Below, piece by piece: positions 18,165 through 53,700 of a stretch of 64,000 bases of DNA. The translations under genes were made by a program, and so were the position numbers. Within the stretch, counting starts at the first letter, position 1. Each line of letters begins with the position of its first letter. Source of the DNA: Heliocidaris erythrogramma. Lineage: Eukaryota > Echinodermata > Echinoidea > Camarodonta > Echinometridae. The notes under the pieces are model-generated. The model saw nothing but the letters and a program-made list of their open reading frames with translations, was not told the DNA's origin and did not search any database. The stretch lies in assembly GCA_025617745.1 (NCBI GenBank), contig CM046857.1:23839761-23903760 (forward strand), written 5' to 3'.

Positions 18165-18748
18165 TATTTCATGAATTAATAAACGAAGAAGCTTGACTGG
18201 GGAGGAATTTTTAATTTGTAAACAAATCTTTTGGCATATTACTCCCAGTGTTAAAGATCGTATGCTCGATCTGTAATGAAAAACACAAGTCAGAAAAAAT
18301 TGGAACCAGCGGGATTCGAACCTGTCATCTACTGCTTGCCGGGCAGCGACTTAACCACCAGGCTATTCTGGTTCACGGCCAAGTCACGACGAACTAGAAT
18401 CAAATACCCAAGATCCTCTTCTTTCTGACTCATTAATATTCAAACGGTCCGCCGTAGACAATGGTTAATAAACGAAGAAGCTTGACTGGGGAGGAATTTT
18501 TAATTTGTAAACAAATCTTTCGGCATATTACTCCCAGTGTTAAAGATCGTATGCTCGATCTGTAATGAAAAACACAAGTCAGAAAAATTGGAACCAGCGG
18601 GATTCGAACCTGTCATCTACTGCTTGCCGGGCAGCGACTTAACCACCAGGCTATTCTGGTTCACGGCCAAGTCACGACGAACTAGAATCAAATACCCAAG
18701 ATGATAGATCCTCTTCTTTCTGACTCATTAATATGTATTTCATGAATT
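18165..18748 (-). mobile_element. Dimeric tRNA-headed retroposon with 13-bp target duplication
   Basis: Two near-identical units (18176-18439 and 18465-18734), 289 bp apart, each contain on the minus strand an A-box-like TAGCCTGGTGGTTAAG and a B box GGTTCGAATCC, with a 7-bp GAACCAG/CTGGTTC end pairing. The pair is flanked by TATTTCATGAATT (18165-18177 and 18736-18748), so both units seem to have inserted together. The T-arm pairs poorly, so this is a SINE head and not a working tRNA. Confidence 0.8.
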
Positions 18749-26888: not shown

Positions 26889-27066
26889 CATACATACATA
26901 CATACATTACTCTATCAGGTACATTAGAAGGACATTTATTGTTCTTTTTCTTTGTTCAAATGTCCGCTTAACGTTCGAAATGTCCTGCTAATGTAGGGGG
27001 CGCTATTATGACGGAATAAACCGTATTGTTGCATGTCCTGCTAATGTACCAGTAAGGTATATATCT

Positions 27067-27113
<47 letters not shown>

Positions 27114-27466
27114 ACAAAATGTTCACAGGAGCAAAGTTCCAACGGAATGCAGTGTTAAAGATATGTAGAAAATAAAGTTCACAACATCGTATAGAATACA
27201 CACACGAGGAGCATACATTTATCTTCACAATAAGCGCTTTCGATTTAATCTCTTCAGGTGAAGTGAGCCTTTGATATTTTTACATTACTTTATATACAAG
27301 TAAAATTAAGAAAATACAGTAATATTCAAATAAGGACAAGGTTTTCACATTGTCCTATAGTTGTTTTAACGACGTAATTAGTCGTAGTCTTAATCTTAGA
27401 TTAAGCGTTGTACGAATGACGTCTTTTATATTCAGTTTGTTTGAGCATCCTAATTCTGAATCCTAA

Positions 27467-27508
<42 letters not shown>

Positions 27509-30500
27509 ATAAACAAACGTAGTGTCATGCTTTAATCCAACGGTGCTTAGTTCCTGTGACCAATGTACGTTTAAAAATAAACGTTGGATTAAAGCATGAA
27601 TGACTTTTTTTATTTTTGTGTCTTCTTATGCCAACACGTGGATTTTATGTCGAATATAATATATACAGCCATGGAAAAAAATGATTAGCCCAAGAATGGT
27701 TACTGAAAGTGTTATATTTGTGGTAAGAAGGAAATAAAAAATCATAAAAGCAAGCTACAATTGCTGGAATTTGTTATTCATTCAATGAAATACAAAGACA
27801 AATCATTTTCATTAGTTTGAAAGCATATTATAGTACCTTTATTACAGAAGCTTGGTCTAATAATTTTTTCCAGGGCTGTATTATGTATATGCAGCAATGG
27901 AAATACCCACATGAGAGTCTACAGGGGTAAACGTATGTTACTGGCCATTTAGTCAACCCAGGGTAGATAACACTTCCAATTATTTATATCACAGGTTTCC
28001 CAGATGTTTTAATTTATTGTCAACCCAGAGTAGTATTTGTGGGCATTTAGTCCACCCAGGGTAGATAAGAATCCCAACTGCCTATATCACAATCATCCTA
28101 GACACTTTGGGTTGACAACAAACTAAAACGTCTAGGATGCCTGTGATACAGACAGTAAGAATTGTTTTCTACCATGGGCTGACTTAATGGACACAAAAAC
28201 AACTCTGGGTTGACAATACACTAAGGTATCTAGGATAATTGCGATATAGGCAGTTGGGATTCTTATCTATCCTGGGTTGACTAAATGGCCAGAAACATAC
28301 GTAAAATATTTAAGTTCCCTAATCGACCCTGGTCTGCCCGGGGGGCCCTACCCCGGGTAGACTCTTATGTGGGTATTTCCATTGCTGCATATATATATAT
28401 ATATATATATACATGTATATATATATACATGTATTTTATATTATTATATTATTATATTTTGATTACAGCTGGACTTTCAGTCCTGTTTAATGGCTTCAAG
28501 TTTGGTGCAAGTGCCGGTAAGCTTTAAAAAAACAAATCTAACCCTGATCATCGATGTTCTTATACCCATTACATGTACATGTACGGTAGATTAATTCGAA
28601 GTCATAAGTTCGGCTCACCTCTTTTCTTACTTCTGGACCGAAACTCGAGCCTGCTGCATTCATTGTTATTATTACATGTGTGCCGAAAGTCTAATGTGGC
28701 AGTCAAGTGTTTGTTTCATTATGATAAGCATATCCTATTACACTCAGCACCCAGCACCTTATTCACTCTATTTACTTTCTGTCCTGATTGTTGTCTTACA
28801 ATATACAAGGCGGGGTGGGGATAGGGAAAAGCGCTGGCGTGGTGTGTGCAGCATAGTTTGTTGGTCCCCGGGACGGAAAATATACAAAATAAGCAATGCA
28901 GGCATTCATTTTAAGGAGAAGCCTGCTCATCAGAGCACAGAACAATGAATGAAAAACAAAACAAAACAACAAAGAAAAAGGAGATAGGGAAGAGAGATGG
29001 GAATTCCTAGAAAGGAATGGGGGGGGGGGGGAATGGCGTGTTTAGAAGATTAGAGAAATTCATCCCACTCCTCTCCCTTGTCGGTGGCTTTGTTCATTAA
29101 AGGGTCACTAAAATAAAAAAAATAATTGCCCATTTTTCGTAGGAAGGTGTCATCAGGAGCCAAAAAATATCTATCACACAATTTTTTATGCATTCAGTCA
29201 TATTTTATAATCATTTGAAAAGTACATTTTTGCTGATTTACACAGTCATAAGCCCCGCCCCTAAAAAAAACCCCCTCGAAGCGACATCGTGATCACGTGA
29301 TCTGTGACGCATGAAAAGTAATGGAAAATATTCCACTAACCTATACCGTGCGCGCCCGGAGGCCTCTGGCAGGCCCAGCCCGGTGCCGAGCATGATATTC
29401 ACCGCATCGACCATTTGCATTGCGTATTTTCGTGTATTTAATTCCTCACAATAAATTTGATTTTGGGACACAGTTTCATCAATAATGCCTAATCGGTGTA
29501 TAGTTGCGGGCTGTAGCAAGACCCCTAAAGATGGTGTGAGCCTACATCACTTTCCTAAAGATGAAAATCTAAGGAAATTGTGGGTCGCAAATGTAAAGCT
29601 CACGCGGGCAGAGTGGCAAGGGCCGGCCAAGTGAGTGGAGTACAATCTGCAGCGATCACTTTGCCGAAAATGATTTTGAGGATTCTGGCCTGTATTCCGA
29701 ATTTGGCATGAAGAGAAGGATAAGGCTGGCTAAAATAAAAGATTCAGCTATTCCAAAGATCAGACCGGGGATCAGACTTGGAGTCAAGTCTTACAATCTG
29801 TTTTTCAACGACAGCAGCTGCAGCAGCTTCATCCGTAGACCGAAAATTCTGTCTCTCGTTCGTTAGCTAAGACGACCTAACGAACGAGAGACAGCATTTT
29901 TCGGTCTACTTCACCCGTAACTCCAGGGAGCTCCAACGCGTTGGAGCTCCCTGGAGTTACTTCACCCAAGGCCCTTCACCGTATTCTGCGAGGGGTTCAG
30001 ACATATAATATGGTCGAATTTCCCCTTACCACTCGAGCTGCTTTGCCTTCGGGGTCTGATAAATCATCTGATAAATCAGAGTTCGTATCTGCATGGCTCA
30101 GAAAAGTCCTCCAACTCGGAATCGCGGGCACTTTTCCTCTCTCTTTATAAGTTACTAGAATTCAGCCAAAATCAGCCAAAAGTCAGTACTAACGTACTTT
30201 GTAAAGCGAAGTAAACAAAAAAAAAAAAAAAAAAAGCCGTAAGTGAAAAAAAAAAAAAAAAAAAGCGTTCACCAGTCGCTATGTACGAGGGGAACATAGT
30301 CACTGCCGTACTTTGTGTAGGACATAGTACATAAAGACGCATACAACGGCTGTGCATGCGTTTATGACCAATGCAAAATTTTCGTTCTTCAAGCTCAGAT
30401 GGATGAGAACATTGTTCAAAAGAAAAGCTAAAAAACAAAACAAGAGCTGTATATTTGGGCAAAAGCGTTTTCTGATCTTGTAGAAAATATATTGCTAATG

Positions 30501-30980
30501 ATTATTCACTCCTAAGATTATATTGATTAATTTCCTTTTTTCATAAATTGTCCGTTGAACAGAGGGGTCAAATACCGCATTCTGTGTACAATATTATATG
30601 CTTCAGCCTGCAGATCTTGTGCCTCTTACTTTTCATACGTCACTTGGGGGTTAGCCAATCAGCTCACGAGTTTTAAGGAACGGTCCCAAAACCTCTACTT
30701 TTCCCCCTTTTTCGCCAAAACGAGACAAAATTTGGACAATCGATTGGCAGATTCGTGATTAGAAGGCCAAACTACATGGAAAGAGCACCCATTTTCTCTC
30801 TAATTAGTCAACCTTTAAATGCCAGTGTCCCCTCAATTGATGAACCCATACTACGCCACTGATTACGTGTATACTCACCAATATCACTGGATATATTCTA
30901 CAAAAATATGTCAATGTTTCATCACTTTACTGTAGTAACAATCACATTATTTAGCACAACCCCAACTTGTTCTAATAATG

Positions 30981-31014
<34 letters not shown>

Positions 31015-34000
31015 TGGGTTTTTGCAGACGTGTATCAATCAAATAAGATTATTTACATCTGGGACTGACCTATAACGTCACCATCCGAAAGACGTGACTG
31101 AGATTCGAACCTGGGTCCGATCAGAGTCAGTTTGTAGGCGAATACAAAGAGCTGCCCGTATAGACGTTACCGCTAGATCAACTCCTGATCCTCAGTGTAC
31201 ATCACTTCTTTTCTTAAATGTTCTTTACCTCAATACTAAAGGATTTAAGGAGTTTTCCAGTAGGTTTGAGACAGAACAATACCTCTATGTGACGTTGAGG
31301 AATCTGGAAACATATGGACAAGGTCAAATTCAGCCGGGTTATACTCTGAGGCATGAGTTTACTACCAAACTATGTGCACTACCGACAGAATATCTTGGAA
31401 ATGAAGAGGAATATCATGGATTTTTGGACCTGTGGGGTACGGTAAGTATTTGCTGAAGGCATGGGCGTCAATCGCTCCTCAAACGTGGGGGGACATATTT
31501 TTGTTTTAACTAGTAATATATATAATAGTGTGTGTGCCCGGCCCCCCCCCCCCCATCTGCCGGCCCATGGCACTGATAATGTTCCCTGATTGAATTTCAT
31601 GGGGGGGGGGGGGGGGGGATGGGGAGAAACTGGCCCTTCCATGAGTACACCAGTGCATGAATTAGTCAATGTGCGTACATAAACATGGATGAAAACATTC
31701 TGACCAACTCGAAATAAATGCCAGAAATTGTGAGTCGCTATTGCTCAGTCTCACCGGTCGCACGTTAAATGTTAAAACACTAGTATCTTCATCCCTATTT
31801 CTCTCCCACATAATTATTGTCAATGTTTGAAGCAACTGAATGTGTACATTCAGAACTTCTTCCTGGTCACTGGTGGAGTGGTGGTACACACTGGTAGTGA
31901 CCACAATCTATAGTTAATTGCTCTGTCACTTTTGCATTTTTAAAAAATTTTGTTTGAGTACAGTCGTTTCCTTGGGTGTACAAATAGATCCTTGTTTTAT
32001 TTAATTAGTAAATGAATCGGTAATAAATGAGAAATAAATAAAATGATACTTAACGCAAGCTCAACAATATTTTAAAACAGTCTATGCAACATTTGAAAAG
32101 CTCTGACGTTTTAGCAAATTCGGAAAAAAGAGAAAGATAAACGGCTCGTAGCAAGCAATTTTTTTGAGGCGGAAAGTTATAGTTCGACGCCCTGACGGCT
32201 TTTCAGTGATTTGGACGCAATATGTATGTGACAGGGGTTGGTGCTAGAGTGTCTGTACTGTAAGACTACCATAGGCCATGTACTATATATAGCTGCTCCT
32301 AACACATTGACACGACCAGAATGTAGCTGAATTAGGCTTCTCTCAAACACAATGATATTCTAATATTAATATTCAAATTAGGGTATGTGCTTGCAGACTA
32401 GGTTGGTGCAGGGAGGGGGAGTTTCCCCCTTCCCGCGCGAAGCGCGAAAGCTCTGACGTTTTAGCAAATTTAAGAGAAAGATAAACAGCTCGTAGCAAAC
32501 AATTTTTTAGGCGGAAAGTTATACTTCGACGCCAGGACTGCTTTTAATTATTTGGACGCAACATTTCACATGCGAGGGAGCGAAGCTAGTGGCGTATCTA
32601 GGGATTATGGCGCCCGGGGCAATCAATGAGGTTAGGCCCCCCCCCCCCCCCCCAGGTCCCGGTTATTGTAGAAGCGGGGGGCAAAGCGACCGAGTGGTAA
32701 ATTTTTCAATTTTTAACCCTAAAAAACGCATTTTGTTTTATTTTATTTGTTTTCAAACGCTTTGAACCCTTTAAGCTATTAAAGAACTATATACTGGGGG
32801 AGCGAAATTACGAGATCCTGAAAGAAAATAATTATGCGAGGGAGCAAAGAGACCGAGCTTTGGAAAATTTTCGCATTTCAAACTTTCAAAAACTAGATTT
32901 CTAGTGCATTACCCTGCGGATTTGGGGGCGCGTGATCCGTAAAGTTTATGATTTTTCTTCATTTCCCCCTATTTTTCTTTCTCTATATACTGGGGGAGCG
33001 AAATTACGAGATCCTGAAAAAAATAATTATGCGAGGGAACAAAGCGACCGACCTTTTCAAAATGTTCGCATTTCGAACCTTCAAAAACTATGATTTTTCT
33101 TCATTTCCCCCTATTTTTCTTTCTCTCCTTTGCGTTTTTTCGCCCCCTGCAAGTGCTGCCCGGGGCCCGTGCCCCTCTGCTCCCCTAGATACACCACTGA
33201 GCGAAGAGGCCTGTCTATGAAACTTGCATTATAGAGCATCCCAAAATGGTTTTTAATGAAAACAAATAATGCACGGAACCCCTTAATTGAGAATAACAAT
33301 GCGAGCGAACGATTTTCTTCGATATTTTTCGCATTGAAATAATGGCATTTCTTATTTCCTTAGTCGGAACATTAAAGAATGTGATGGTATTTCAAGATCA
33401 AACATGAGTTTTGGTAATTATTAGTTTTAAGTAAGTGTATCATAATTCTTATCTTATCAACACCCATGGTAACAGGGGTGGGTGCAGGGAGAGGAGAGTT
33501 ATTTCCCCCTTCGCGTGAGACGTTTGACGTTTTAGCAAATTCTGAGAGGCAGATAACGGCTTGTAGCGCCTTTTTAGGCCCTTTTCTCTCACTTCTCCCG
33601 CTTTTTCGCTCTCGCTTTTTTTTAGTGGCTGAATTGGGGGGGGGGGGGGGGGGGGGTGGCCCCCCGGTGCCCCCTGTCTACGCCAGTGCTCATATACCTG
33701 TAACTCTTTCATGTTTCTTGCATTAGTCTACGACTTTATTACAAAACAAATACAACAGTAGAAACTTATACTAAGTAATCTTCATGAATAACCTCTCTTC
33801 ATACACAAGTATACACGTACATGTTCTGTGCAGACATGACGTCTGCTTTAATAACAAATGAATGGCTACAAGTTCACAACTGCAGCATTTGCAACGTTTG
33901 CAGTCTAGTCTTGAACAGTTTTCTGCAATACAAAACATACATGTAGTACAAAAAAGCTGTAATCACTAATATAGCAAAACATTCTCCCAATTAACAACAA

Positions 34001-34632
34001 ACAAGATACTGATATAGGTACATATGTACTTGGACTCCACCGTTAGTGGAAACATGAACATTTAAGTCTAATGATCACATGTTCACTTTGCATACTCTAA
34101 TTCTGTTGTATTCATTTTTTTTTGGAGCAGTAGTATTTTATATTCAAACACTTTCACATTCAGGCTCTTCATTTACATGCTAATTGCATAATGAATATAT
34201 ACCAGAAACTTAGTTATTGCAGTATGAAAATTTAAGGCAGTGAAAGTGCATGTATTTGACAATCCTATGTTTACTCCTTTTCACAATTTCATTTTTCCCT
34301 TTAGTACAAATTAAACTAACCAGGCAATGGAAACATGCTATATATTTGTTTAATGGACAACAGAAATTTCTTCATGTCCAGATTTTACACAGAAATGCAG
34401 CATTGCATTGCACTATCCGTGGGTATTAAAAATAAATCATAGCAGCATGAACATAGTAGACAATAAATATATGTAATGTACACACACACACACATATTAT
34501 ATATGGGGCTTAGTCCGAAAGGGTGAGTAGCGTCGCGTCGCTTCGCGTTGACTGGAACGCCACCATTCGTCCAAAGCACCCCCGGTTTTGCCGAAAGGGT
34601 GCGTTGCATTTTTTTTTCTTTCTAAATACAGT

Positions 34633-34669
<37 letters not shown>

Positions 34670-37600
34670 CAGCGGTTCCAGGATTTTGTAAAGGGAGGGG
34701 GGGGGCAGAAATGCAGCGCTGTCATCAGGGACGGATCAAGGATTTTGTAAAGGGGGGGGGGGGCACAGAAGTGCAGGGCTGTCATCAGGGGCGAATCCAG
34801 GATTTTGTGAAAGGGGGGCACAGAAATGCAGGTCTGTCATCAGGGGCGGATCCAGGATTTTGTAGAAAGGGGGGGGGCATGGAAATGCAGGTATGTCATC
34901 AGGGGTGGATCCAGGGTTTTGTAAAAGGGGGCGCACATATATGCAGGTCTGTCAACTTTGGAGGGAGATCTATATTTAAATTGCTCAGCAGTTGGGGGGG
35001 GGGGGGGGGGGGGAGGGGGTGACGAAAATTTTTTTTTGCAAGCCCTCCAAAAGTCCAATTTTCCTCCCATAATTCTCTGACAAGCAACAACAACAAAATG
35101 TTATCAGTTCTAAAAGGGGGGAGGCATAAAGCATACTTTTCTTTCAAATGGAGGGGCACGGGCCAGGATCCGTAAATCTGCCACTGTCACGAATATTCTG
35201 TTAGAAAAAGTCCAAACGCACACTTTCGGCAAAACTGTGAGGGGATCCTGGATCCGCCCCTGACAGACCTGCATTTCTGTCCCCCCCCCTGTTACAAAAT
35301 CCTTGATCTGCCCCTAATGACAGCCCTGCATTTCTGCCCCCCACCTCCCTTTACAAAATCTTATAATAATAATAATAATAATAATAATACACTGTATTTA
35401 GAAGAAAAAAAAGTCAACGCACCCTTTCGGCAAAACCGGGGGGGGGGGGGGACTTTGGACCAATGGTGGCGTTCCAGTCAACGCGACGCGACCCGACGCT
35501 CCCAACGCACCCTTTCGGCCAGTTCGGGGGGGGGGGGGGGGCTTTGGACGAATGGTTGCGTTCTCATCAACGCGACGCGACGCTACCCACCCTTTCGGAC
35601 TAAGCCTATATATGGTAGGGTCAAAATGCTTAAAGCTTTATCTTTTAGGCACTACAAATACATGTATACACACACATTCACAAAATGGCAAAATACAATA
35701 ATATGCCCTGTGTGCTACACAAAATTATTGAGTATTTCAGATAAACAATTAAAGTTATTAAGATACACTATTTTTTCAATCACCACATACTCTCTCTCGT
35801 CATATTTCCATCATTTGCATGGAATGTCAGCTTCACTTACTGCAACGTAATAGCCAAACCACAGTTTGTAAAATGGTTGTAAAGTAGTATTTCAAATAAA
35901 TATGTGGAATTATTTTGAAATGAGAGACATAAAAGATTAAGGGGAGGTACACTTTTACTACACAGAGACATTTGGAGACAAATATAATAGTCCTTATGAA
36001 CTAAAATCCAATTGCTCCTTGAAAAAATACCTGCACAACAATACCTATTTAGTTTGTCATCTTTACTATTCAATGAAACATTTGGGCAGAAGAAAGCATG
36101 GGCTTATTGCTTTTGCTTTTCGTTCCCATTGTTTGGTTGGTTTCTTTCATGCCAGGTTGGCTAGCATTTATCATTGCACTACTGAACAAACAAAAAATGC
36201 AAAGAAAAAATTAGTGAGTCATCTGAAACATCAACCAACACACACGATTCACTTAATAAGTTTTAAAATCCACCAATTCGCGCCATGATATGTACCTTAA
36301 AAATGAAAGGTAGTGATCGGCCGTCCAAACGTCCGCGACCTAGCACAAATTTTAGAAACAATGATATACATAAGGAATATAAAACAATAGAAAACATAAG
36401 AAATAAAAACAATATAAAACATGTACACATACAAATATATAAGAATTGATTTATTTCACACTTGGGAAACATTATTCTTCATTATTACAGTTTTCCTATA
36501 GTTTTCTACTTGTTTAGGCTGAAATTATGAAAATATCCCAAAAATGCATAAAATATGCATTATGAATAATTAATTAGCTAATTATTCAAAAAAAATGCAT
36601 AATTGATTAAAATTAATCACACCATCAGATTCAGCATGTGAAGATCTATCGACATGCAAATTTTCAAGTTCGTTGGACATTGCGTTTCTGAGATCAATGG
36701 GCCCAGCCCCCCCCCCCCCCCCCCCCCCCCAGCATGTTCATGGAGCAAAATAGTCCAGTTCAGTAAGGGCTAACGTAAGATATATATATATATACTTGGA
36801 AATTTGACGGTAGGTAATTTCGGTTTTGAATGATTTTTTTTTTCATAATCCAAAAAGTGTGGGGGGACATTTGATATTGTGTCCCCCACCTTCAAATTGG
36901 TGGGGGGGGGGGGGGACGGGGGACGCGTCCCCCCGGGATTGACGCCCATGGCTGAAGGAATCATGGAATAACATTCCTATGATTACTAGCCACACACCCT
37001 TTGATTTGATTTTGATTTGACTTTACAATATGTACATGAGAAATATAAACATATTAAGCATATGGCATAATACAAAGGATAAAACATATATCATAACAAC
37101 TCAGTATAATAAATATCTTCCAGTAAAAGTAATAAACGCATACAGTATATACACTTGTGGGGGAACCTATTAAAAGCGAGGCTTGTCGAGTTAGGTCCCC
37201 ATTTAGCGATAAAAGGAGCTGGAAAGTAAAATGGAGAGATTAAGATGAGAAGAAACAAAGAAAGGACGGGAATCAGCAGATGGAAACAAAAGAAAACATA
37301 AAAATTAAGTAGCTATAGAGTGAAAGAGAGATGTGTGTGTGGAGAGAGAGAGAGAAAAGAAAAGAGAGAAAAGAGAAGAAAGAAGAGAGAAGAGAGAAGA
37401 GAGAAGCGAAGTACAGATCGAGATCAGCAACCATGCAGCATTCTAGTATATGGTTTCAGCAAAAGAGATTTCAATTGTTTTTTAAAATGGTGCAGTCTCT
37501 CTATTTCCTTAAGGTCTGGATCGAGACTGTTCCAAAATTTGGGACCTGTAAAGACGAATGTTTTGTGTGCTAGGAGCGTTCTCGTGCGTGGAAGATGGAA

Positions 37601-40600
37601 AAAGTTTGATTGTCTCGTTGGGTAGTTGTGGAGTGTATTGTTAGTTGTGAAAAGGTCTGAGAGAGCATTCGGAAGTTCATTATTTATTAGTTGGAACATA
37701 AATTGACCCAGATTATAAAGGTATAAGTCAGACACTTTGAGAACTTTATTACTATGAAAGAGCTGGTCAGTATGTGAGAGATACAATCCTCATGGCCTTT
37801 TTTTGAAGTAATAGTAATCTGTTTAGTTGTTGCGCGGTAGAGTTGCCCCATGCTAGAATTCCATAATTAAGATGTGGAAAACATAAGGTTAAGTAAAGAG
37901 ACAACAAAATAAAGGATGGGAATTGATATTTCAACTTATTAATTACTCCTATGTTTCGCGAAATCAAATTTGACAAGTTATCAGTATGTGGTTTCCAAGA
38001 GAGCTTATCGTCAATTATTATACCTAAGAATTTAGTAGTTTTCACTTTTTCGATAGGTATATTATCAAAAAGAATATTACCAGGCAGGGATTGAAGAGTA
38101 TTGCTGAAGAGCATGTAATTTGTTTTATTTAGGTTTAAAGACAACTTATTCGCTTTTATCCAATCCGTAACACGTTTCAGCTCGGAATTTACTGTTGAAA
38201 GTAAAATTGCTGGGTGTCCATGGGAAAAGAAGAGATTGGAATCGTCAGCAAACAATATGAAAGATAAAATGGAGGAAGATTTATAAAAGTCATTGATATA
38301 TAAGATAAAAAGCAAGGGTCCAAGGAGAGATCCCTGTGGTACTCCACAATTTACTGGTTTAATAGAAGAACTGTGCCCGTTGAGTGATACATATTGGTTT
38401 CTATTAAGGTAGTTCCTGAACCACTCCAAGGCCTTTCCTGTAATCCCGTAGTGGGATAATTTATATAATAAAATAGTGTGATCAATAGTGTCAAAGCCTT
38501 GGAGAAGTCCAGGAAGACTCCAACCGTGTGTAATGCTTTATCGATGGCGCTGGTTATTGTGTTAATAAGAGTTAAGACTGCTTGGGAAGTGCTGTGTTTT
38601 TCTCTGAATCCAAATTGGAAATTGCAAAAAATATTGTTGTCTTTAAGAAAGGATACTGTACGTTTGTATATAATTTTTTCAAGGATTTTTGATAGTGAAG
38701 TTAGGAGTGAGATGGGTCTGTAATTACTAAGGCTGAGTTTATTTCCTTTTTTAAAAATAGGGACAACTTTTGCAGTTTTCATTTTGATGGGAACCATACC
38801 TGATTTTAGAGACAGATTAAAAATGTGCATTGGAGGTTCTGCTATTTGAAAAACTATATGTTTTAATATAGGGTAGGTGCAGGTAATATGGGGCTGCAGG
38901 TAATATGGGACCCTGAGTAAAAGCCTGAGTAAAAGCCACAGCAACCATACATATTTTGTCAATTTCACTGAGCTGGAAGCCTAAGGCATTGCATTATTCT
39001 TGGCATAGGACTGGTCTGCAGGTTTACTTTTCTTCAGACGATCTATAAATTATATAATTTTAAGTCAACATATTCATTAAAGGTTCTTAAAATGTGAAAT
39101 CATCTTACAGTTAATGACTTTTATACATTTTAAAGTAAATACCAGACATAATAGAGTCGTTTTAATGTGAACCTAATGTCTTTAATTAATGGTCCCATAT
39201 TACCTGCACATGCAGGTAATATGGGACTATTGGTGATGATGTCATAATTTGCATATAATGGACAGGGGGCTGGTGATAATTTTGTTTTCTTTACATTAAA
39301 AGTTAGACTAGTCGTTACTGATTCATGGGAACAAAGTATATTCTGTGTGTCTTTATTTGTCTTTATGCAAATTATGCAAATGAGCTTAAGGGTCCCATAT
39401 TACCTGCACCTACCCTACATTTGTTTAGGGAATCGTGGCCATGGCTTTTTTTATTTGGTAAATCATTTATTATATTAAATACTTCGTAAACAGTGACGGG
39501 AGTGAAAAATATCGTGTTTGAGACTGGGTTATCCAGATAATTGAGAAATGATTTATTTATAGGAGGAATGTTTTGGCCAAGTTATCTAAAATGTTTGCAA
39601 AGTATGTGTTAAAAATTTCGGCTAGACGGTTAGGTTCAGAATGACAGAACCGCTATGTTCAATTTGTGAGATCTGAGCTTTAGGTGAGCCTTTATTCAGT
39701 ACGTTGTTGATAATTTTCCATGTTTGTTTAATGTCGTTTTTATGTTCATTAAATTTATTTGTAAAATAATTTTTTTTTTCTAGACGGAGAATACGAGTAA
39801 GAGTGTTCCTGTAGCTTTCATACTTTTTCTTTAGTGATGGATGGGTTTTTGATTTATAAAACATGTTATTTTTTCGGTTGATTGATAAGGATTTTGTGAG
39901 CCAAGGCGCTCTCGGTACTTTTTTGTAGCTGGAGCGATTCTTTTCACGGAGGGGGATGTGTGCATTGAGGTGCGACATGATTATGTTCATAAAAGCGTTA
40001 AACGCTTCGTTAGCGTCGGTCGAGTTAAATACTGCTGTCCAGTCAGCATTCATTAAACCTTCTTTAAACATGGACAAATTCAGTTCATTTATAATTCGTA
40101 CTTTTTCTCGTGACGAACATTTTGAGTGATCACTCGACATGTCCATATGACAAAAAACAGGAAAATGATCAGTGAGATCAGATAGAAGTATGCCGGATTC
40201 GGGGAGAGGTTGAACATTAGGGGGGCAAAGGAATTACTTAATATTATTTCAAGAAAATCTTGGGATACAGAATTAGAATGAGAATGCAATAGATTAATAT
40301 TAAAATCTCCTAATATGAAACATTGTTTATCTTTTAGGATCGGAAGCGATAGCATTTCATTAAAATATGTAGTAAACTCGTTTGGATTGGATTGAGGTGG
40401 TCTGTAAATTACTCCAATTATGATGTTCTTATTTCTCATTATGTCGATTTCAATGAAGAGAGTTTCCATTGTGTTATTCAATGTCGTCAAATCGTTGATT
40501 TTCGTGTAATTGTATTTTGTATGGATGTATAAGGCCACTCCACCTCCCATTTTATTGACCCTACTATTCGTGACTAATTCATAATTGGGAAGAAGATGCA

Positions 40601-43600
40601 ATGAAGTTGGAATGTCGGTGAGCCACGTTTCTGTCAGGCCAATAATTGATGAGTTGAATCGGAGGTTTTCTAGAAAGTAGTTTAAGATGTTCAGAAATCC
40701 TATTCAAGCTGCGAATGTTAAAATGTGCTAGTGCGAATTCCTTAAGATGTGGATTTAATGTGTTAACAAATTGATTTTCTGTGTAATATCTAGACGTTAC
40801 AAATTCTAATAAGGGGTCATTAGGATCTACAATGTATTGTAATTCATTTACTTTAGAGTTTAAAGCATTCACGATCTGGTTGTCATAGAGCAAATCATTG
40901 GAAGAATACGGGTGAAAATCGTTCGCACGCGAAAATAATTCATACAATCCGGTGTCATCTAAATGTTCGAAGGGAAGTTATTCAGCGAAGCCAGAGAGGA
41001 GGCGTGTCATTACGAAATCTGTATAATAGTAAATTGAGCAAACAATTGCTTATGCATGAACAATGAGTATGAGTGCTGCATAGTTGCGAGAAATCGTAGA
41101 ATAGGTTGAAGAAAGAGAAAAAGACAGGTGAGAAAGCATGAAGATGGACAAACATGAGAAGGGGAAACAACGAAAGTACATAGGTCAGCCTAATCGGCTG
41201 CATGCGAATTCTTGAGTAAATACTTTTATGAAATGTATAAAAGAAACAATTCGGAGCGTACCACATAATAGTAATAGTAATTCAATAGCGTAATATCTCC
41301 CTTTACGTAAAAGTATGTTAATTGTATACACCTCCATAGGAGTTGTTTACCATTATTAAAGGGAAATCCAACCTTAATGGCAACTTGCTTTGAAAGAGGA
41401 AATAGGAAAATCAGAGAAGCAGACCGGCCAAAGCCCGAACGAAATCGGACAAGCAATAAGAAAGTCGTGAAGGTCACAACCACCACACCTATGAGAATCT
41501 CAAACCGGCTGAATAAGTAATGTCCACGCGACGAAGTTGTGGACAACTCCCCCACCTGCTCCGATACACAAAATTACTAAAATATCATTTGTTTCAAAAT
41601 GTATTACTCAGCCATTTTTTTTTTTTTTTTAAATGGAGACATAATATGCTATCTGTTATGTAATAAATAATGTTCACGTTATGCGCTAACACTGAGTCCG
41701 CCCTGCTCATTCCCGTCGCGGCGAACACCACGCGCAGGCTCCGTAATTAATTGGGAACCAGCAACTTGGACGACGAGCGAAATATGACGTCAGCACTTCG
41801 GCACTCTACATTAGTTAACAGTTCACATAGCACAATGTGTAGCCTAGACCGCGGGGCAGAGTGTGCATTCATTAACCTCGGAATAAATGTATGGTATGTC
41901 ACAACTATGAATAATAATACCGTCAATTTGGGGTCATTATGTAGTGACTTTGTTGCAGGTTTGAACCAGTAACTGCGTAGCATAAGTTTACGGGAGATAG
42001 TTGTAGAGCAAAAGAAAGAATGAAAGCACGGAGTTCTTCCTGCTGTAAAAATTTACATTAATTAAGGCTCATCAGAAGAATTGTTTTGCATAATGAGGTT
42101 ACCCTAAGAATGAATACGTTTTGCATAATGAGGTTACCCTACAAAATAATGGATACCCGATATGTGGTTTATCGCTTGTTTTAGGGCGATTATAACCTTA
42201 CAAACTGGCAGGATAATAGGAATCGCGATTTTTCAGAGGCAATGAATGCAGCTGGTCCCACGGGCTGTGGCTAATTATTGTCTAATGTAATATATTCATG
42301 CGTTGAGAACAAATCGTAAACATTGCGATGGGTCATACATATTTAATATGGCGTAATTTAGATATTAAACATAATGCTATTCGAATAGTAACATGTACAT
42401 CTTAAGCTTAAAGACATTCTTGAGCAATTTGTTGACAGGTAATAACTCGGGTTTCTCGTGGAGAGAACAAGTACTCCGTATATTTTTAAAGTAACAACAT
42501 CAGGATATGGTCAAAATAGATTAGTCGGTATCATTTAGTAAAGAATCTCTAAACTCATATATCCGTAAAAATCTAGCATAATGTGGTTCCGCCTATTAGC
42601 AGATTCATGAGAGATAACTTTCATGTAACAGTAATACAATGAGTCATATTGGGCAATTATAGATATTATAACAGTAACAATGTTGACAAGAGATTTTCGT
42701 TATAAAGAACTTTAGGGATAAAAAAAAATACACACGCCAAAACACTTTCTTAAATTTCTCTGGTTTCTCATAGAGAGAAAAGGTATCCCTAATAACTTAA
42801 ATTGACCTCATCAGGATATGATCAGCTGAGAATACATTAGTTGGTAGCATTTGGTAAGGAATCTCTGAGTTCATGTACCAATATAAAACTAGTAAGCATA
42901 ATTTGGTTCCGCCTATAAGCAGTTTCATGCATGCGAGATGTTGTTTATTCAACTGTACTACACTGAATGGGCCGAATGAGGTAATTTAGATATGATAAAC
43001 AGTATCAATGAATATTGGCAATGATTTTTCGTTGTTTTTAGAGTAACAGAATACACAGGCCAAAACTTTTTCTTGAACGTTGGCTGCCCGTTAAATTACT
43101 CGGGTTCCTCGTGGGGAGAACAGGTATGTAGTCTAACTTAAAGTGACCTACCAGGGTATGATCAGATTGAAATAAGTGAGTTGATATCATACAGTTAGGA
43201 ATCTGGATCTGAGCTCATATGTACCAATAAAAGTCTAATACTATATAGACGTAATTTGATACCGCATTATATGAGCAACTTGGTGAGACATAATTGGTTA
43301 TTATTATGCGGATATATACGACGGTGTATGTATTAATATTATTATCTTCTTTTTTTTATAACCTTACAGCGTATACATCTTCATGTGACATATATTGGTT
43401 ATGTTATGCGAATATGCGACAGTGTATGTATAATTATTATTATTATTACATGTATCTTCTTTCTTTTTTTTTTTTTTTTTTGCATAACCTATACAGAGTA
43501 TACAACTTCTTATAACATAATTATGTTATGAGAATCTACGATGGTGTATGTATTTATTATTATCTTTTGTTCCCTTCTTTTTTCATAGCCTTACAAAGTA

Positions 43601-46600
43601 TACGTCAGGGCGCCTTACCTTACCTTACCTTACAAAGTATACGACACCATATACCTTATAGTGATACTTGATCTGTTATCAATCACTGGGTACTGCAATT
43701 TGATTAGGTTAGACAATTGTATACATTACTTATTGGTTTTATCAAGGAGGGGCTAAGCAATCTGACACCTCCTTGGTTTTACATCAAAATTAGAACAGTG
43801 GACACATATTTATGTAATTCGCTTAATATATTAATATCCCCCCAGATGACAGCAACTAGACAGGGTTGACCAGAAGCATACATCAAAATCCTCCCATTGA
43901 TGAGTGGTTCCTGATGTAAAATTTGAACAGTGGACACAATTCCTATGTCGTTTACTTAATATATTTTCCCCCAGATGACAGCAACTGGATAGGGTTGGCC
44001 AGAAGCATACTAATTTTTAGCAGAAAGTAAAACTGTACGGGTCCCAGCAATAGCTAGTACATGTACATGATTCTACATGCATTGATATACAGAAATGTTG
44101 GTTCGAAGCTTGACTGGGCTTCCAATTTACATACTTTTGATAGTTGATATAAGGAGACCACCGTTCCGGAATGGTGAATTAACCATATCATAGCATGAAC
44201 AGTAATTTGGATGCATGGTGCATGTTCGTTCTAAACTAGCACGATCAAACCAAGGAGTTTTGCGTAGTTTGAACGATTAGTTGTGTTGCACAGCTTTTAT
44301 TTTAATGCACCTGCACCATTCCGGAATGGTAGCTCGGGCATTATCAGTACGTGTACAATAGTCAATATCATAGTACGTTTGTAGCGAGAAAATGATGCTG
44401 TTAATGAGTTTATTGATTCATCGCTACTGATCAGGCATACGCTGATCTAGGTAATTGCAATTTTAAGCATAACATTTTTTGGATATCATTATTCTCTACT
44501 TCAGTCAACAGTTTATAAACTGCCGGGAAAAAACAAAAAAAAACTTGAGATATGACTAGGATAGCTGTATTTGCAGGCCAAACTGAGAAGAGTCAGTAAG
44601 AATGGTTGCAAACCAGATTCTTTTGTGAATAAAACAATTTATAGATATTATTTGGTATTCTCCATATACTCGAAATTCCTAGTATTCTTTATTACGAACT
44701 TAAAAACGATTTTTTTTCTCATAATTTTCGTTAGGAAAATAATATTTTAGCACTGCTGTTAAGGTTGGTATTTAATATTTACAGGTGTGCTTACTATATG
44801 GAGTAAGAAAATTGAATGGATTAGGGTAGTTACCCGGGTTACGTTACCAGTTACTCCTTATAAGTTGTCCATGGGCCCTGGGTGCCGGCAGTGGCACCGC
44901 GTGGGTGTTTCCTCGTTTGGAGCACAACCTTCGTTCCAATAACTTTAATTCTCGTTGACATGTGTTGAGATCGCCGTAGCTCGTAGGCGATCTTGGCTAG
45001 TCTACCACGGTCCCTCTTTAGTTTTGGAGGTAAATCAGTGCGAACAGCTAGGGGCTGTTGTCGGTCGCGTTGTTGCCGTGGCTGTGCGGGGTGCTCGAAT
45101 GCCCGTAGGATCTTGTCGCGGTCCTTCATCGCGGCAAACCGGACGATTATTGGGTCGGGGCTCGGAGAGGTGCTGGCGCGGCGATCGTAGGGTTTCGTAG
45201 GCAGCCTGTGGGCGTTTACAAGGGGGATTGCCATAGCCTCATCCGGGTGGATACTAAGCAGCGTCGAGAAGGCCTGTTGTACCTTTTTGTATGGGTCTTC
45301 GTCCGCAGTAGCGGGAATTCCGTAGAAGAGGACAACTATAAAACCATAGGCGTAGCCAGAGGGCAAAGGGGGGCCTTGCTTTCCCTATTCAGCCCCTAAA
45401 AAGAAAGCGAAAGCGAAAAAGCGGGGGGAAGGGGGATATAACTCCCCTCTCCCTGCACCCACCCCTGTTAGACACAGTGCAATGTTGCCTCCAAATAATT
45501 GAAAAAGCAGTCTGGGCGCCTAAAGAAATTGTTTGGTACGAGCCGTTATTATTAGAAAGCTTTATTTATTAGAAAAAGCTTTATTAATACATTTGATTTA
45601 TTTATTTCATATATATATATATATACACATCATTATAATCATATTCTTCATACATGGTGTAATCAAGAAATATATACATATATGAATGGATCGTCATAAG
45701 CTCGTAAGAGCTTGACATGGACGTCCAAAAAAAAAGAACAAAAAAGAACACACATGATAATTGGTAGCATTTAGACGTAATGATGTTCATTCATGGTTAT
45801 AGATAGAGGGGATACATATAAAGAAAGTACTATACATCATCAAATAAGAAAACTAGTTATCAGGCCTATGTGATTTATCTCATAATGGATAACAAATAAA
45901 AAAAATATAATACGGGGGGTAGAGGTTGGACCATGCAATTTTTTACCTTACCCTGCTCAGGTCCTATCTTTACAAAGTAGGAGTTAAAACCATTTACGAT
46001 AAAAATTATTGTTTGGTTGATCATGTCCCTGATTATCATGACTGAACCTATTTAAGGGAGTATAGTCTTTTGATCGACCAAGAATATCATTTATAGTTTT
46101 CCATGTCGTAGAGATATTATTATTTGAGTTTTCTAGTTTTGTACCAAAGTGTTTTTTCTCTGACAGGCGAATAATAGATGTTAATTTATTACGATATAAT
46201 TTATATTTATTAATATTGATTTTGGTGGGATTTTTAAAGCTGATCTTGTAAAATTCATTTCTTGTTCCTATTGACTTCAATATTCCTTTTGTAATCCAAG
46301 GTTTATTTGAGCATTTATTCTTACGTTTCATCTTGGTTTTAGGTATGTTTTTATCCAAATAGTAATTAAATCGTAACATAAAGACATTAAAAGCTAACTC
46401 CGCCTTTTCTTCCGATGTTACACTTTTTGCCCAATTTTCTGATGTAAGATCTGAGTTAAGGTTAGCTATATTTACAGGAGTATATCGACGAGTTTGGATT
46501 TCTTTATTATTTCGTTTATTTTGCTGCTTTATTTCAGATAAAAATTTAAAAATAGGTAAATGGTCTGAAATATCAGAATATATAATGCCTGAGATGTTAG

Positions 46601-49600
46601 TAAATATATTGTCAATGAGGGAGCTGTTAGCGGAGTAATCCTAGTTGCGACAACTGGGGATTTGAACGCCATTTTGTTTCCACTATTACGTAACATTTCT
46701 ATTCAATTCCGATGAGCCCCTGGGTGTTCTCAATAGAAAGAATTCGAACGCCATTTTGTTTCCAGAAAAGTGGGGCGTCCATTTCGTAACTCTTTTATAC
46801 AGGGACACTAGGTCCTTGTTGCTTTATCTATGAGCTGTTCAAAAGAATTCGAATAAAGATTATTCACAAGCTGAATGGGTATTCGGTCGTTTGATAATAA
46901 ATCTACGTTAAAATCGCCTAATATGTGAACACTTTTACCCTCACTACATGCATAAGATAGTAATGATTCGAACTCATCAAGAAAAATATCATTATTGGCA
47001 TTAGGCGGTTTCTTCTTTTCTCTCTTGTCATCCTTTCTCGTCTATCCATTTCTAATTTCCCCTTTTCCCTTTCCTCCTACCAACACACATGGTGAACCGT
47101 AAACCTTCTCCACGTTATAAGCTCCACCATGCAAACCTTCAAAGTTTATAACCGTTGATATCAAATATTGAACGTGAAAATTTGTGAAGCCATGTTTCTG
47201 TGATACCAATTATCGAGAAAGAATGGGATAAAGTGGAAAGGAACGTGTCGAACGACTCAAAGTTCTTTGTAAGACTACGAATGTTCAGGTGTAAGATGCT
47301 AAAATTGGCATTATTTCTGAAAAGTTTTGAAAATTCATCAGGTAAGTAATAATCGCATGTATTTGCATGGTTTATACCTATATTAACATCGTCATCCATA
47401 TCCATAAAAAGGCATAATGTATATACACATAGGTAACGAGTTTACAAATTAGAGCATATTATATTGAACATTTGTGTAGAAGAGATGATGCAGAGTAAGA
47501 TAAAACAGTGAATAGACATCATAAATGCTACAGGCGAGTTGAGACTGACCGAAAAAATAAATACGGTAGTCTAATCTTAGACTGAACTTCACCATAGAGC
47601 AAAAACATCAACTCTCCGTGGAAAAATAAAATGTAGTCATTTCTGCGGATACATTTAACGAACATAAGTATGTTCATACAGTAAAATCAGTTTATATATC
47701 ACCAATCTGGCAGTGTATAGGCACATACCTTAATTATGTACATGATAAATCCCATATGTTATCATAAGCATGTTCAACAAGTATAAACACTGAATAGTAT
47801 ATGCAGATGCAATGTATAAAGCATATTCTACATATTAAAGGGGAATTAACCTCAAAATATAAAAGTGCTTATATTCAAAGATGTAATCTATTCCTTCTTG
47901 CTGTCCTACGTAGTTTTGCATTAAAATATATGAGATACGGAATACGGTATAAATCAAGATTTTCTCAGCAAAATTTATCGCCTGCTAGCGATACCCGGGG
48001 GCTGCCATTTTCATGATGTGTACATCAAGATATTTTTTAATCCCAATGCAAAATTGTCTTTGTTCCTGATACAAATCCCATTTGAGATTTAAAATATTTG
48101 ACAGATATAAACATATATTCTAAAAACGAAAATGTGCTTTATGTTTCTTTGAAAATTACGATTTGACTAAATACAAATCTATTTTCTTGATACATGTACT
48201 ATGACGTACGCGACGGAGCGAATTAATTTAAATTTATGGACGATAATTTTCCCGAGCGTCAATAGTGACAAACTATGCATTCACCTGTCTTGAGATAATG
48301 ACTTCAAAAGTCAGAATGCGCGTTGTATAAATTATGTTCTGCTCTGCCAGGCAAGCCCAAGAAATCGATTTCTATTTAGCAAAACCAGAGAATTTAAAAA
48401 GAAATCTATAAATTTCAAATTTTAGAATATATGTATACACCTGTTATGTATTTTCCATCATATATGTGGATTTTTTTATAATGAAGAGAAGCAATTTAGC
48501 TCGATGATTAAAATACCTTCCTAACCGGAACGGTTTCCAGCGGTTCATGTACAACTCCATATCATTAAGAAAATGGCAGCCCCCATGCAAATTGTTAGCA
48601 GATGATACCGTGAGCTAGAATGTCTTGATTTAAACCCTTTTCTGATATTTTATTTCTAAATTGATACAGGTCAATGATTAAGAATATATTACACCTTTGA
48701 CCATAAGTACATTTATATTCTAGCGTTAATTCTCCTTTAATATCAATAATTCTAAGTAATATAGTTTAGATAACATCAAAGTACATGTAATATTATACTC
48801 CGATGAATTATATTTGTAGATGTGTTATCTTTCTCTTTCGCCCTTCGTGCGGGAAGGGGGAAACTCCCCCCTCCCTGCAGCCACCCCTGTATACAGTCCA
48901 GTATTGCGTCCAAATAATTGAAAAGCAGCCCGTGCATCGAACTAACTTTCCTCCTTAAAAAAGGTGCTATGAGCTGTTATCTGTCTCTCAAATTTGATTT
49001 TTGTACAACTTTAATTTTGTAAATTATGGTTATGCAGCAATTTCCCCATGCCAGTATACAATAGTTAAGATAAGGCAAGATCAGGGCAGAATAGAGTATA
49101 AGCATAACATGAGGAGGTACAAAAGGTTTCAAATCAATTTGAACCTTCCATGTTAGTCTAGTGTCTATTAAAACACCCAGAAATTTGGTAGATTCAACCT
49201 GGGCGATATTTTTATTGTTTATTTGTATAATTACCTGGTAAGGATGATATAGAATTACTAAATAGCATGAAATTTGTTTTATTTATATTGAGCGACAATT
49301 CGTTAGCTTGAATCCAGTCAGAAACGCATTTTAATTCAGTGTTTACGATGTTCAGAAGTGTATCGGGGTTCTGGTGAGAGCAAAAAATATTTCTTTTCCA
49401 GGGATTTCCTCAAATATTTTTTTACGGAACTCATTTAATACAATTATATCAGTTTCATGATTATTTAGATTATCGTGCGAAGTAGTCTTAAAATTCGGTA
49501 GGTACTCCGTTTTCACGACCTCTTTTTACTTATTTCGATTCACAGCACGTCGTTATGGGAGCCACGTTTGGGAAAAGTGAACACATTTCCAATAAATACA

Positions 49601-50682
49601 AGCTGTCTGAAGTCATGGTAACGAAAGCAAGAGAGGTAAGGATTTATTTGTGGTTTGCTTAATTCAGAAGGAATCTTTCCAACCGAAATATATGTCCGGT
49701 TAAGAAAAAGAAAGAAGATGAAGAAGAATGGGGAAAAATCCGCGTTGGTTACAAATCTATCTTCTGTTATCTAAGAAATTCTCCAGTGGTAGTGAAATCG
49801 ACCACCAACCAAAAGTTGATAATTATGTCTGTTCATGTTAATCTAAAAAGATACTTCTCTCTGCAGATATCAGGACATTTGTCCATTGGCGGAAGGTTCC
49901 GAGGATACAGTGCTTCTATTGTCTTTCCAGTATCATATGACTTAAAGTTTCAAGATTTCAAGGGGGCTGCTATTGGATCGAGAAGAATTTCTCTTAGAGG
50001 TTCTCATGAAAATAATGGTAAGAGCGGCATTATGATGTTTTAAAAATATAATTTAATAAACCTGGAGGGGGCTTCATCAACAAAACTCGATTTTCGATCT
50101 TAAAACCAAGCGGTTCGATTTTATCGATTTAAGGCTTGATGAAACACCCCGTTATCTTGCTTATGGACAATAAAGATACATATATCATGAAAGTGGTCTA
50201 GAGCTACCTACCTATAAAACATGTTTTTCAAAGTTATATCAATTTGCTTTCTTCAACATGCTGTGAATGTAGCTGGCAGAATTTCAGCAGGGACATACAA
50301 ATTTGAACATAATTATTTCTCCTGTTCTCCAGAAGCGGCACTGTTTACCGATTCGCTAGCGCATAGAATTGATCTGAAAATCCTTCTCCTGACATGGAAG
50401 GTTGTAAATTGAGTGGCACCAATCGGCCTACAAGATCTAGTTCTGCCTATGCACACATCAATATCTCTTTGAGGTCCTATGAACTAGAGTAGCTTGTGGC
50501 GAAAGGGATTTTCGTCTGCGGCACATTTTCTGTTGAATAAATTACCAATGGAGTTGAAAACTAGAACATCCTTAGAAAGTTTCAAATCCAAGTTCAAACG
50601 GATATTGCACTCATCCGCGGACTCTCATATCTCCTCAATTTTTCTTTCGCGCTTCGTAACAGACGGCGCTACACAAAATGGC

Positions 50683-50720
<38 letters not shown>

Positions 50721-53700
50721 GGTGGTCTGTCCATCGGACAGATCAACTCTTATTTTCGTCAGCATTTTCTTATTTAGTTTTACGGACCCAATATTGTCCC
50801 CACGATATCTCAAAATCGGCCATGTCAATATCCTTCAATTTCATGCCATGTATGGAGTCTATCATGGACATGTTCATAACGAGTCAAAAGTAAACCATAT
50901 TTGACATGAACGTCAGGTCAAGCCTCAACATGACATGTAATAAAAATCCTCGCGAACATGACGCGCACGTACGCGCGCGTCAAATTTTAAAAATGCTCAA
51001 AATCACCCAAGGACCGAACGAGAGTACGTTTCAGGTCATTTTAAGCATTTCAAAAATTTGAGCGCACACACGGCCGTGCGCGCGTTTTGCGCGCGCACAT
51101 CACGTATCTTACAGAAAAAACCCGTTCTTTCACATGGAATAGCTTTCTGATAGTTTTCTTGACGATTTCCAACAATTTTCATTCATCCTCGATGTCTAAT
51201 AATGGCGCACGAGCGCATCAAACTTTAAAATCCGCGCGCGCGTCAATGGACAATATAATGTAAATCAAAATAGGATCAGTCAGTTTTCTTCAAAATTTCG
51301 TCAGTCATCAGGCCCTATGAGATGAAGTTCCCGGAAACTTTTCATGGTCGCCAGTTAATCGTGACGTCATCCAGGCGCCATTTTGTGAAAATCAAGTCAT
51401 GCTCATAATCTTCATAACGGAAAGTCATAACGGAAAGTCATTTCTCATTCATATTTCGCATGATTAAAGCTAATACCAATCCGATCAATTTCAGAAACTT
51501 AGACGCGCGCGTACGCGTACGTGCGTAAATCTTTCTGAATCTTGCCACAATCATCACATCTTGACCAAACATGCCCACAATAAATCAGATTCATAGCTCA
51601 ATTGTTTGTTGTTTAATTTTGTGTGTAGACGTCGTTTTCTTGTCCATCTTTTCCTTATTTTCTCGACCACCCTGCCTTCTACAACGAAACCAATGGTGGA
51701 AAATTTGAAGGAAATGCTTGTCCATTTTACTCTCAACTCAAAGATTCGTTAAAAATCTTCTGTTTTTCCACCCATTGCCACATGAAAAAACGGAAAATCT
51801 CATACTTATAAACCGACCACCACCCAACCCCCTTATTTTTTCCGGGGCCAATTAGTTGAAAACGGAATGGGTAATCTTTTTGAAGCACAGACATGAGGCT
51901 TGGTAGGACAATTATGCTGTGAAAATTAATCACAAGGTCATGATATCATAACTTTATCCAGATGCCATTTTCTGAAAATCAACTAATGGTCATCTATGTT
52001 CAAAACGAAATGTCGTTTCTCTTTCATATTTCGCATGTCAACTTCACTGTCATCACATATATGACCATCTAATCATCATTGTCGTCGACCCTATCATGAT
52101 TACTATCTTGCCCAATCATCATCATATTTTACAAAACAGTTTACCAGTTCAAGACAGACCACCTAGGCCTAATTCGTCTTCAGTGACGAATTAAATTTAA
52201 CTTTAACTGCGACTTAGGGCGAAACATTTTATCTCATCATATTGTTACGTTTCGCCCTAACCCACGTTCGTTTCGCCCTAACGTTAAATTTCTATTGTGA
52301 CGGAATAAACCTATTGTTAGGTTTCGCCCTAAGTCGCAGTTAGGTAAATTATCGTTATTAATATTATTTTTTTTAATTATCGTTATTATTATTATTATTC
52401 TTATCATTCTTATTTTTATTATTATTATTATTTTTATTATTTTTATTATTATCATCATCGTCATTATTAATATTATTATTATTTCTCTTAACAGAACCAA
52501 TAACGTACCGTTTAAAGGGGATGGATGAGATAGCTGAAGATTCACCATGTAATCAAACAGAGATATTGGTGGAGAACATGAGACAAGCACTGGCCAGTTA
52601 TCCACAATATTTAGGAATACCAAGGAGCGAGGGTGAGTTTGATGCACTTGCTATTAGGTCTTTCTTAAAGACCTCAGCCTGACCCCAAACAACCATATAT
52701 TGACGTAAAGCTTAGTAAACAAAGAATATAATTACCCTGGTTATTCATAAATTTTCGTCTCCGTTTATCCATAAAAAATAAAAAAGATAATTTTTTTGGT
52801 CCGCCCCCTCCCTATGACGTAACACTGCAGGGGGTCGCTAGACGTGTGACGACATGTCATGTATACAGCTCCGAGTGCGTCTACACGATATGTCGTCATC
52901 AAATTTTCACCCCCCGCAAAGTAGCGTTCCTCAGAGACGGGGCCCAAACCATCGGGGCTCAACATTCGGGACGCTGTTACTCATTCCACAGGAAACGGAA
53001 TCTCATGAAGTTGGTTTCAATTTGTTCAGAAAATATATAGCTCCCCGTGGATGAATAAAGGGTATATTTCAAAATTCGGTCAGGCTGAGGTCTTTAAAAC
53101 TTAAGTCTCATCGTCAAACCTTCTCCATACCGATTCCAAATCGATCATTTCTTGGCCGTTCGGGGTAATGTAATTTTTAGTTACTCACAGTGCGGATGTG
53201 CAAACCATTGGCATAACCTTAAAAACCTTAAAATAACTATAAACAGAGTACCGTGAAACAGCGCTTCAAAACCTTCTTCATAACCGTGTTTCAAAACGCT
53301 GTATCTGGCTTCGAAATGAGCTATAAACGTGCCCTTAAGCCTATTGAAAAAATACCCCGACGATACTTGGAAACGCATTACTCCTAAAATAGTTTTGATT
53401 TCATCATGTACTCCTTAATAACCGTATCGTCTAAGGATGATTTTAAAATAAAATAAGTAGAATACTGAGTTTTATTACGTCTGTCAAATTCCAGTGATCG
53501 AAAATATATTGTTACGTTAGTACTTACCTATCATGTTTCAATATTTTTTTTAAAATTTAATTTACGGTTAAGGAAACGGTGCATCATATTCAACAGCAGT
53601 TAGTCATGAATCTTTCCGCAAAGAGGGGGAAGGGCTCCTTTACACCGAGTCCACTGCCTGGACTGCTCTCAATATCCCTGTCTGGTGTTTATGTCCTTGG

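Follow-up and report, generated by a model that had tools for sequence, protein, structure and literature searches.

MITE-like elements of the sea urchin Heliocidaris erythrogramma share a short core and carry reiterated phrases that vary in concert

Several described groups of non-autonomous transposons offer points of comparison for two foldback sequences, here called elements A and B, that lie in a 64,000-nucleotide stretch of the genome of Heliocidaris erythrogramma (assembly GCA_025617745.1, contig CM046857.1, positions 23,839,761 to 23,903,760; hereafter the window, in which coordinates are counted unless another locus is named). According to the available parts of the papers that describe these groups, the CMITEs of Acropora corals are miniature inverted-repeat transposable elements (MITEs) of about 100 bp, with families set by their ends; between families, the terminal repeats are less conserved than the interior. 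The elements show TTAA duplications and a link to piggyBac, and their termini read CC[C/T]T (PMC2872659). SaTar, Micron and MuTAnT are MULE-type MITEs of plants that sit in microsatellites, measure about 200-1900 bp and produce duplications of 9-10 bp (PMC5907723, PMC4486113). ISL2EU elements, restricted to animals, duplicate an AT dinucleotide target and have ends that usually begin with GG (PMC4482050). Finally, the HINE/DINE-1 elements, which are non-autonomous Helentrons, reach a very high copy number and are reported from sea urchin and molluscs; they have a stem-loop at the 3' end and insert preferentially at TT (PMC4067079).

Elements A and B are both real and MITE-like, with a length of about 150 bp each, and belong to a set of small, gene-free copies with inverted ends, a fixed register, a core found at thousands of places, a phrase that varies in concert throughout each family and, in one family, intermediates between phrase states. 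We consider it reasonably probable that they are non-autonomous MITE-like transposons of one large and diversified group, in which the phrases are putative binding sites that track the specificity of a transposase.

Element A (26908..27060, forward strand) lies within (AT)n and has the outer ends TACTCTA and AGTAAGGTA. Its left terminal phrase is an inverted copy on the reverse strand (26920..26935) and forms an arm of the inverted ends; on the forward strand follow an imperfect first internal copy, P2 (26960..26973), a second internal copy, P3 (26980..26995), an exact core TGACGGAATAAACC (27009..27022) and the right terminal phrase (27033..27048), whose TGTC motif begins 25 bp after the core start. 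The two terminal phrases pair as arms of 16 nt with one mismatch. Element B (52199..52347, forward strand) adjoins (ATT)n and has the ends AACTTTA and GTTAGGTAA. The left terminal inverted repeat, which includes the inverted phrase, occupies 52204..52225 on the reverse strand and is followed on the forward strand by P2 (52248..52261), P3 (52269..52282), an exact core (52298..52311) and the right terminal phrase with its inverted repeat (52320..52342); the arms 52204-52225 and 52321-52342 are 22 nt long and 100% complementary. These are the only two exact core matches of the window. Because each element has three direct phrase copies and one inverted copy, its single strand folds to a hairpin in which the terminal phrases are paired, with a fold z of -2.46 for the DNA of A (1/200 shuffles as good) and -5.71 for that of B (0/200). 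Among open frames of at least 110 amino acids, none overlaps A, and the one that overlaps B extends beyond it.

What a preliminary description of A and B stated on their sequences, their layout and the exact core that they share is thus confirmed in the window. The same description held the scaffold of the two elements to be nearly the same, which overstates their likeness: the identical columns number only 81 of 156, and the spacer between P3 and the core has an identity of 0.47. The outer ends are conserved between A and B, as are the register and the block CTATTrTGACGGAATAAACC-TATTGTT; the motif ACGTTCG, which had been counted as part of the scaffold, is not general according to the subfamily consensuses. 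Nor do the phrases of A and B differ completely, as had been stated, since they are 46-62% identical per site in gapless alignment and are both variants of T[GTA]TCnnnCTAA; the right site of A and P3 of B reach 0.62, a value equalled by a shuffled A phrase in 44/5000 trials. B and the subfamilies F3 and F10 illustrate better how a single scaffold can carry different phrases, with spacers at 0.86-0.94 and phrase sites at 0.65-0.75.

The genome (1.06 Gb, 26 contigs) contains 8446 matches to the core with at most one mismatch (4254+4192 on the two strands), against 1444 (758+686) for the same string read backward as a control, an excess of about 7000 places. The A phrase TCCTGCTAA stands 14-20 bp upstream of the core in 292 exact matches, with two different spacers, and the control gave 0. 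These genome counts and the pairing of A phrase and core rule out that the core is a chance match; a search of the window at three mismatches, with 8 matches for 6.5 expected, was too loose to decide that point. Copy number is high for both families: in family A the first-look candidates number 899, and the best 40 scored are young copies 97-100% identical to the window copy, as measured over about 156 bp with some flank included, and family B has 1266 first-look candidates, 40 of which were scored. The strings TGACGGAATAAAC and GGTTTATTCCGTCA, including the core string, were found in no paper of the PMC library.

Copies of the A/B type, which we call group M, fall into eleven subfamilies with one common register (the left motif in inverted form, then one internal copy or two, the core and a right motif), with terminal inverted repeats in A, B and the subfamily consensuses, and with consensuses of a small and homogeneous size (128-158 bp) and without coding capacity. 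The distance from left phrase start to core start is 86-88 bp, and that from P2 to core 47-49 bp, in the nine subfamilies with four sites, F7 and F16 having one internal copy each. From the last internal copy (P3) to the core it is 27-28 bp in all eleven, and from core start to right phrase start 25 bp in ten and 24 bp in B, a value that was set by eye together with several other site positions. In gapless alignment the phrases of the group follow the pattern T[GTA]TC nnn CTAA, with some departures in F8, F10, F11 and F26, and their variable middle is mainly CTG (A, F6), CAG (F7), GAC, TAC or CTC (F2), TCC (F16), GCC (B) and CCC (F3).

The phrases agree much better inside an element than between families. 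Their mean identity is 0.831 within elements (60 site pairs) and 0.626 at the same site between families (201 pairs), a concert that none of 10,000 shuffles reached and that persists inside the two clades named after their motifs (4/10,000 shuffles for TGTC, 0/10,000 for NTTC). With this test independent drift can be ruled out, as the preliminary description had argued. That description had also called for a search of the genome for one phrase per locus, and each locus does use a single phrase dialect, as scored with two dialect motifs drawn from these same families. The scoring relied on a sample chosen blind to the phrase, in which 94 of the 100 exact core places listed, all on contig C1, gave 91 distinct copies. 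All 44 copies with at least two scored sites were single-dialect, 46 had fewer than two (32 of them none, mostly other architectures) and one was scored as mixed. Over all 126 copies, 77 were single-dialect and 2 mixed; both mixed copies, one in the C1 sample and one outside it, are single-dialect deletion copies mis-scored by the fixed windows, as seen by eye for the former. At least two scored sites occurred in 73/3000 random windows. The identity, shuffle and dialect results together show that the concert is real and general within group M.

In the NTTC clade (B, F3, F10, F11) the spacers reach 0.80-0.94 and the phrase sites 0.65-0.83, and spacers are more alike than phrases in 6/6 pairs, in one of them by 0.01. 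A and F6 present the opposite case, with a phrase identity of 0.85 and a spacer identity of 0.47. Over the whole set, subfamilies with similar spacers tend to have similar phrases (Mantel r 0.45, 29/5000 permutations). This pattern fits two cis parts that would have evolved in a linked but partly independent manner.

Intermediates were sought in family B, where two phrase positions were followed across L, P2, P3 and R in 45 copies, most of them from 30 loci picked because they resembled the window copy. A diagnostic letter is exchanged at one site after another, through TTTT, TCTT, TCCT, CCCT and CCCC. With the other position written before the stroke, the copies on this ladder are AATA/TTTT (2), AATA/TCTT (1, read as ATTA by the script), TATT/TCCT (1), TTTT/TCCT (1), TATT/CCCT (8), TTTT/CCCT (23) and TTTT/CCCC (2, one being the window copy and the other a close relative). 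The remaining 7 copies stand off the ladder, three without a site and four with a further single change, and the direction of the series is inferred. Deviations were also compared among the 42 B copies that have all four sites: same-letter deviations common to several sites of one copy number 15 for 3.7 expected, and 2000 shuffles gave at most 11. Fourteen of the 15 fall within a single sub-lineage, in three copies, and the last one elsewhere, and homogenisation is therefore visible at the level of the lineage and not in each resident copy. This is as expected if active lineages change while dead copies drift.

The A/B type inserts mainly into AT-rich microsatellites. A microsatellite, mostly AT-rich, adjoins at least one side of 36/42 copies of group M and both sides of 18/42, and random single segments gave 84/2000 and 58/2000. 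No match was found between the phrases and the insertion-site flanks, a comparison that the preliminary description had proposed; a derivation of the phrases from the flanks is ruled out, the latter being mostly microsatellites. In 40 B copies, AT follows the right end GTTAGGTAA in 40/40 and precedes the left end AACTC in 30/40 (by eye), which suggests a possible AT target-site duplication in this family.

Repeats close to the ends serve as transposase-binding sites in other DNA transposons. In the reading that we prefer, the phrase copies of the A/B type, of which two are terminal and usually two more internal, would be binding sites for a transposase or a partner protein, with a distance of 20-22 bp, some two turns of the helix, between the internal ones. 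The core, which starts 24-25 bp before the right phrase does, would form a second cis-acting site, perhaps read by a host or accessory factor common to several transposon families. With each shift of transposase specificity between lineages, selection would drag along all phrase sites, one by one, and would leave the core free of that pressure, which would make A and B two lineages with diverged "locks" and not swapped cassettes. Several results weigh against this reading. In the TGTC clade the agreement of P2 with P3 alone is not significant (1311/10,000), and among A, F2 and F7 the spacers are the more alike in 1/3 pairs when all phrase sites are counted and in 0/3 for terminal phrases. Owing to their common ancestry, the subfamilies are not fully independent. 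In the loci examined and in the window, only one isolated hit to a phrase motif lay farther than 170 bp from any core, so that the phrase was not seen apart from the core. A target-site duplication is unreadable in microsatellite flanks, AT at the left end being limited to 30 of the 40 B copies. A search for an autonomous element with these ends, tried for the YqaJ-bearing (ISL2EU-like) superfamily only, found none, and gene conversion in active source copies would account for the data nearly as well.

Copying inside an active source element is indeed the main rival. Hairpin formation, template switching or gap repair would copy phrase over phrase, without selection for protein specificity, in a layout whose folding is documented above for A and B, and the B intermediates do shift one site at a time toward the state of another site. 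We nevertheless judge it rather unlikely: conversion alone leaves the fixed register and the core unexplained, and the single shared deviation found outside one sub-lineage, among 15, implies that copying is infrequent in resident copies. The concert could also reflect nothing but recent ancestry, with four identical phrases in an ancestor and drifted sets inherited by the families. Shared descent of the families and the non-independence of copies in a family are in line with such an origin, but it predicts an agreement at the same site between families at least equal to that within elements, and the observed values (0.63 and 0.83) make it very improbable.

Phrase-bearing ends could alternatively have been joined by recombination to the core-bearing interior of different elements. 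The same core occurs in three architectures (the A/B type, one of about 175 bp in (AC)n and one of about 360-390 bp), and A and F6 combine a common phrase with different spacers, both of which speak for such modular assembly. On the other hand, the internal phrase copies beside shared spacers change as well, so that end swapping alone is insufficient; the intermediates are stepwise, and spacer and phrase similarity remain correlated, so that we regard this origin as quite unlikely. The preliminary description had proposed that a dedicated process replaces the phrase at all four sites as a unit. Sites do agree inside each family and one phrase is found on two spacers (A, F6), but the phrases of the eleven subfamilies form a graded series, and in family B the site-by-site, mosaic intermediates contradict a unit swap, which leaves this proposal scarcely credible. 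Retuning of putative binding sites under a shifting transposase specificity remains the explanation that we favour. The usual grouping of MITEs by their ends assumes that ends must be kept, whereas in the present elements it is the ends, together with the internal copies that echo them, that vary in concert, around a core that is constant across many families. Since intermediates exist in at least one family, one may ask, family by family, whether binding sites co-evolve with a transposase or repeats copy themselves, and also whether one core serves several types of transposons.

The core is present in at least three architectures, and its sharing among them is the least explained part of the finding. 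A similarity graph of 124 copies, including loci picked for likeness to B, resolved groups of 79 (M), 21 (S) and 20 (C) copies and 4 singles. Group S elements are about 360-390 bp long (L015 1204-1581, L016 1227-1618, L018 1442-1802), with long inverted ends, found in 3/4 loci tested (L015, L016 and L018, not L012), that differ between subfamilies; the core is placed immediately interior to the right one of these ends. Their interior has a tRNA-like stretch, seen by eye only, and ARAGORN predicted 0 tRNA genes in 9 loci of this class of about 380 bp. Group C elements, of about 175 bp and within (AC)n, show the same layout with the phrase ACCGATGAC and a reversed core (by eye). Two of the singles (L037, L043) have a further pair of ends in common, as judged by eye, and an inverted repeat of 14 nt was not found in L037. 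Microsatellites adjoin at least one side of 17/20 C copies, 1/20 S copies and 3/9 ungrouped copies. Two loci each harbor a pair of elements: L005 has elements of different subfamilies close together in opposite directions, and L025 a second, reversed element with another phrase type downstream of the core. We tentatively suggest a two-part address, in which a constant cis module TTGACGGAATAAACCGTATTG of about 20 bp, present in several unrelated architectures, would be read by a common factor, of the host or accessory, and variable, matched sites by the current transposase; in the A/B type, the module would stand at a fixed distance from fast-evolving, matched putative sites. If so, MITE families could arise by retuning the variable part only.

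Other features of the window include an inverted duplication with arms of about 1.3 kb (21312-22666 and 53679-55049), 89-99% complementary in pieces and about 31 kb apart, and a direct duplication (18176-18414 and 18465-18702) with a step of 288-289 bp and 99-100% identity. Frames at 37424-40977 on the reverse strand resemble the remnant of a non-LTR (long terminal repeat) retrotransposon, with a reverse transcriptase match on the frame 38351-38980, and an exon-like frame at 56672-57109 encodes an apextrin C-terminal domain (PF16977, E 1.2e-21). This domain and the reverse transcriptase match indicate a eukaryotic genome, most likely that of a marine invertebrate, and the domain, taken with the general character of the sequence, points to an animal host. 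Elsewhere in the assembly, contig C26 (locus L121) carries genes that look bacterial by eye and is probably a contamination or a symbiont.

Each known system resembles these elements in part, the coral CMITEs and the plant MITEs that target microsatellites being the closest, within what the available portions of the cited sources state. As SaTar, Micron and MuTAnT, the A/B type is short, has inverted ends and resides, often in clusters, in microsatellites such as (TA)n, with the insertion frequencies given above; unlike them, it has a core and a reiterated phrase, neither of which appears in the accessible text of PMC5907723 and PMC4486113, and its host is an animal. The likeness to ISL2EU lies in an AT target, here only possible, whereas the terminal GG and the ends common with a YqaJ/THAP-transposase element were not observed. 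A search of the genome for YqaJ gave 17 matches; the five stretches read (L129-L133), the left end being seen in two copies, were without phrase or core, and a partner of this kind was rejected. Two of these stretches are copies of a YqaJ element of at least 7.3 kb (L132 1874-9217, and L133), located on contigs C16 and C5, 99.8% identical and with a 619-amino-acid reverse frame, which looks recently moved. HINE/DINE-1 elements are similar in their subterminal inverted repeats, microsatellites and very high copy number, but the phrase of the A/B type is near-terminal at both ends and has additional internal copies. The preliminary description had stated that no described class behaves in this way; this must be qualified in view of the coral CMITEs, which, in the accessible text of PMC2872659, have a conserved interior and differing ends. 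The ends of the A/B type differ from CC[C/T]T, TTAA duplications were not found, microsatellites (AT-rich or AC) make up most of the flanks, and the elements repeat their terminal motif internally. The core itself has no significant similarity to the available CMITE core, the B, A, S and C versions being reached by 1396, 544, 896 and 132 of 2000 shuffles, the C version thus coming closest, and homology between the two found no support. An interior more conserved than the ends is seen in 6/6 NTTC pairs and, for terminal phrases, in 0/3 TGTC pairs, the constant core having served as search bait. Nevertheless, as short MITEs with families defined by ends and a conserved interior, the CMITEs are the nearest described case of differing ends around a conserved interior.

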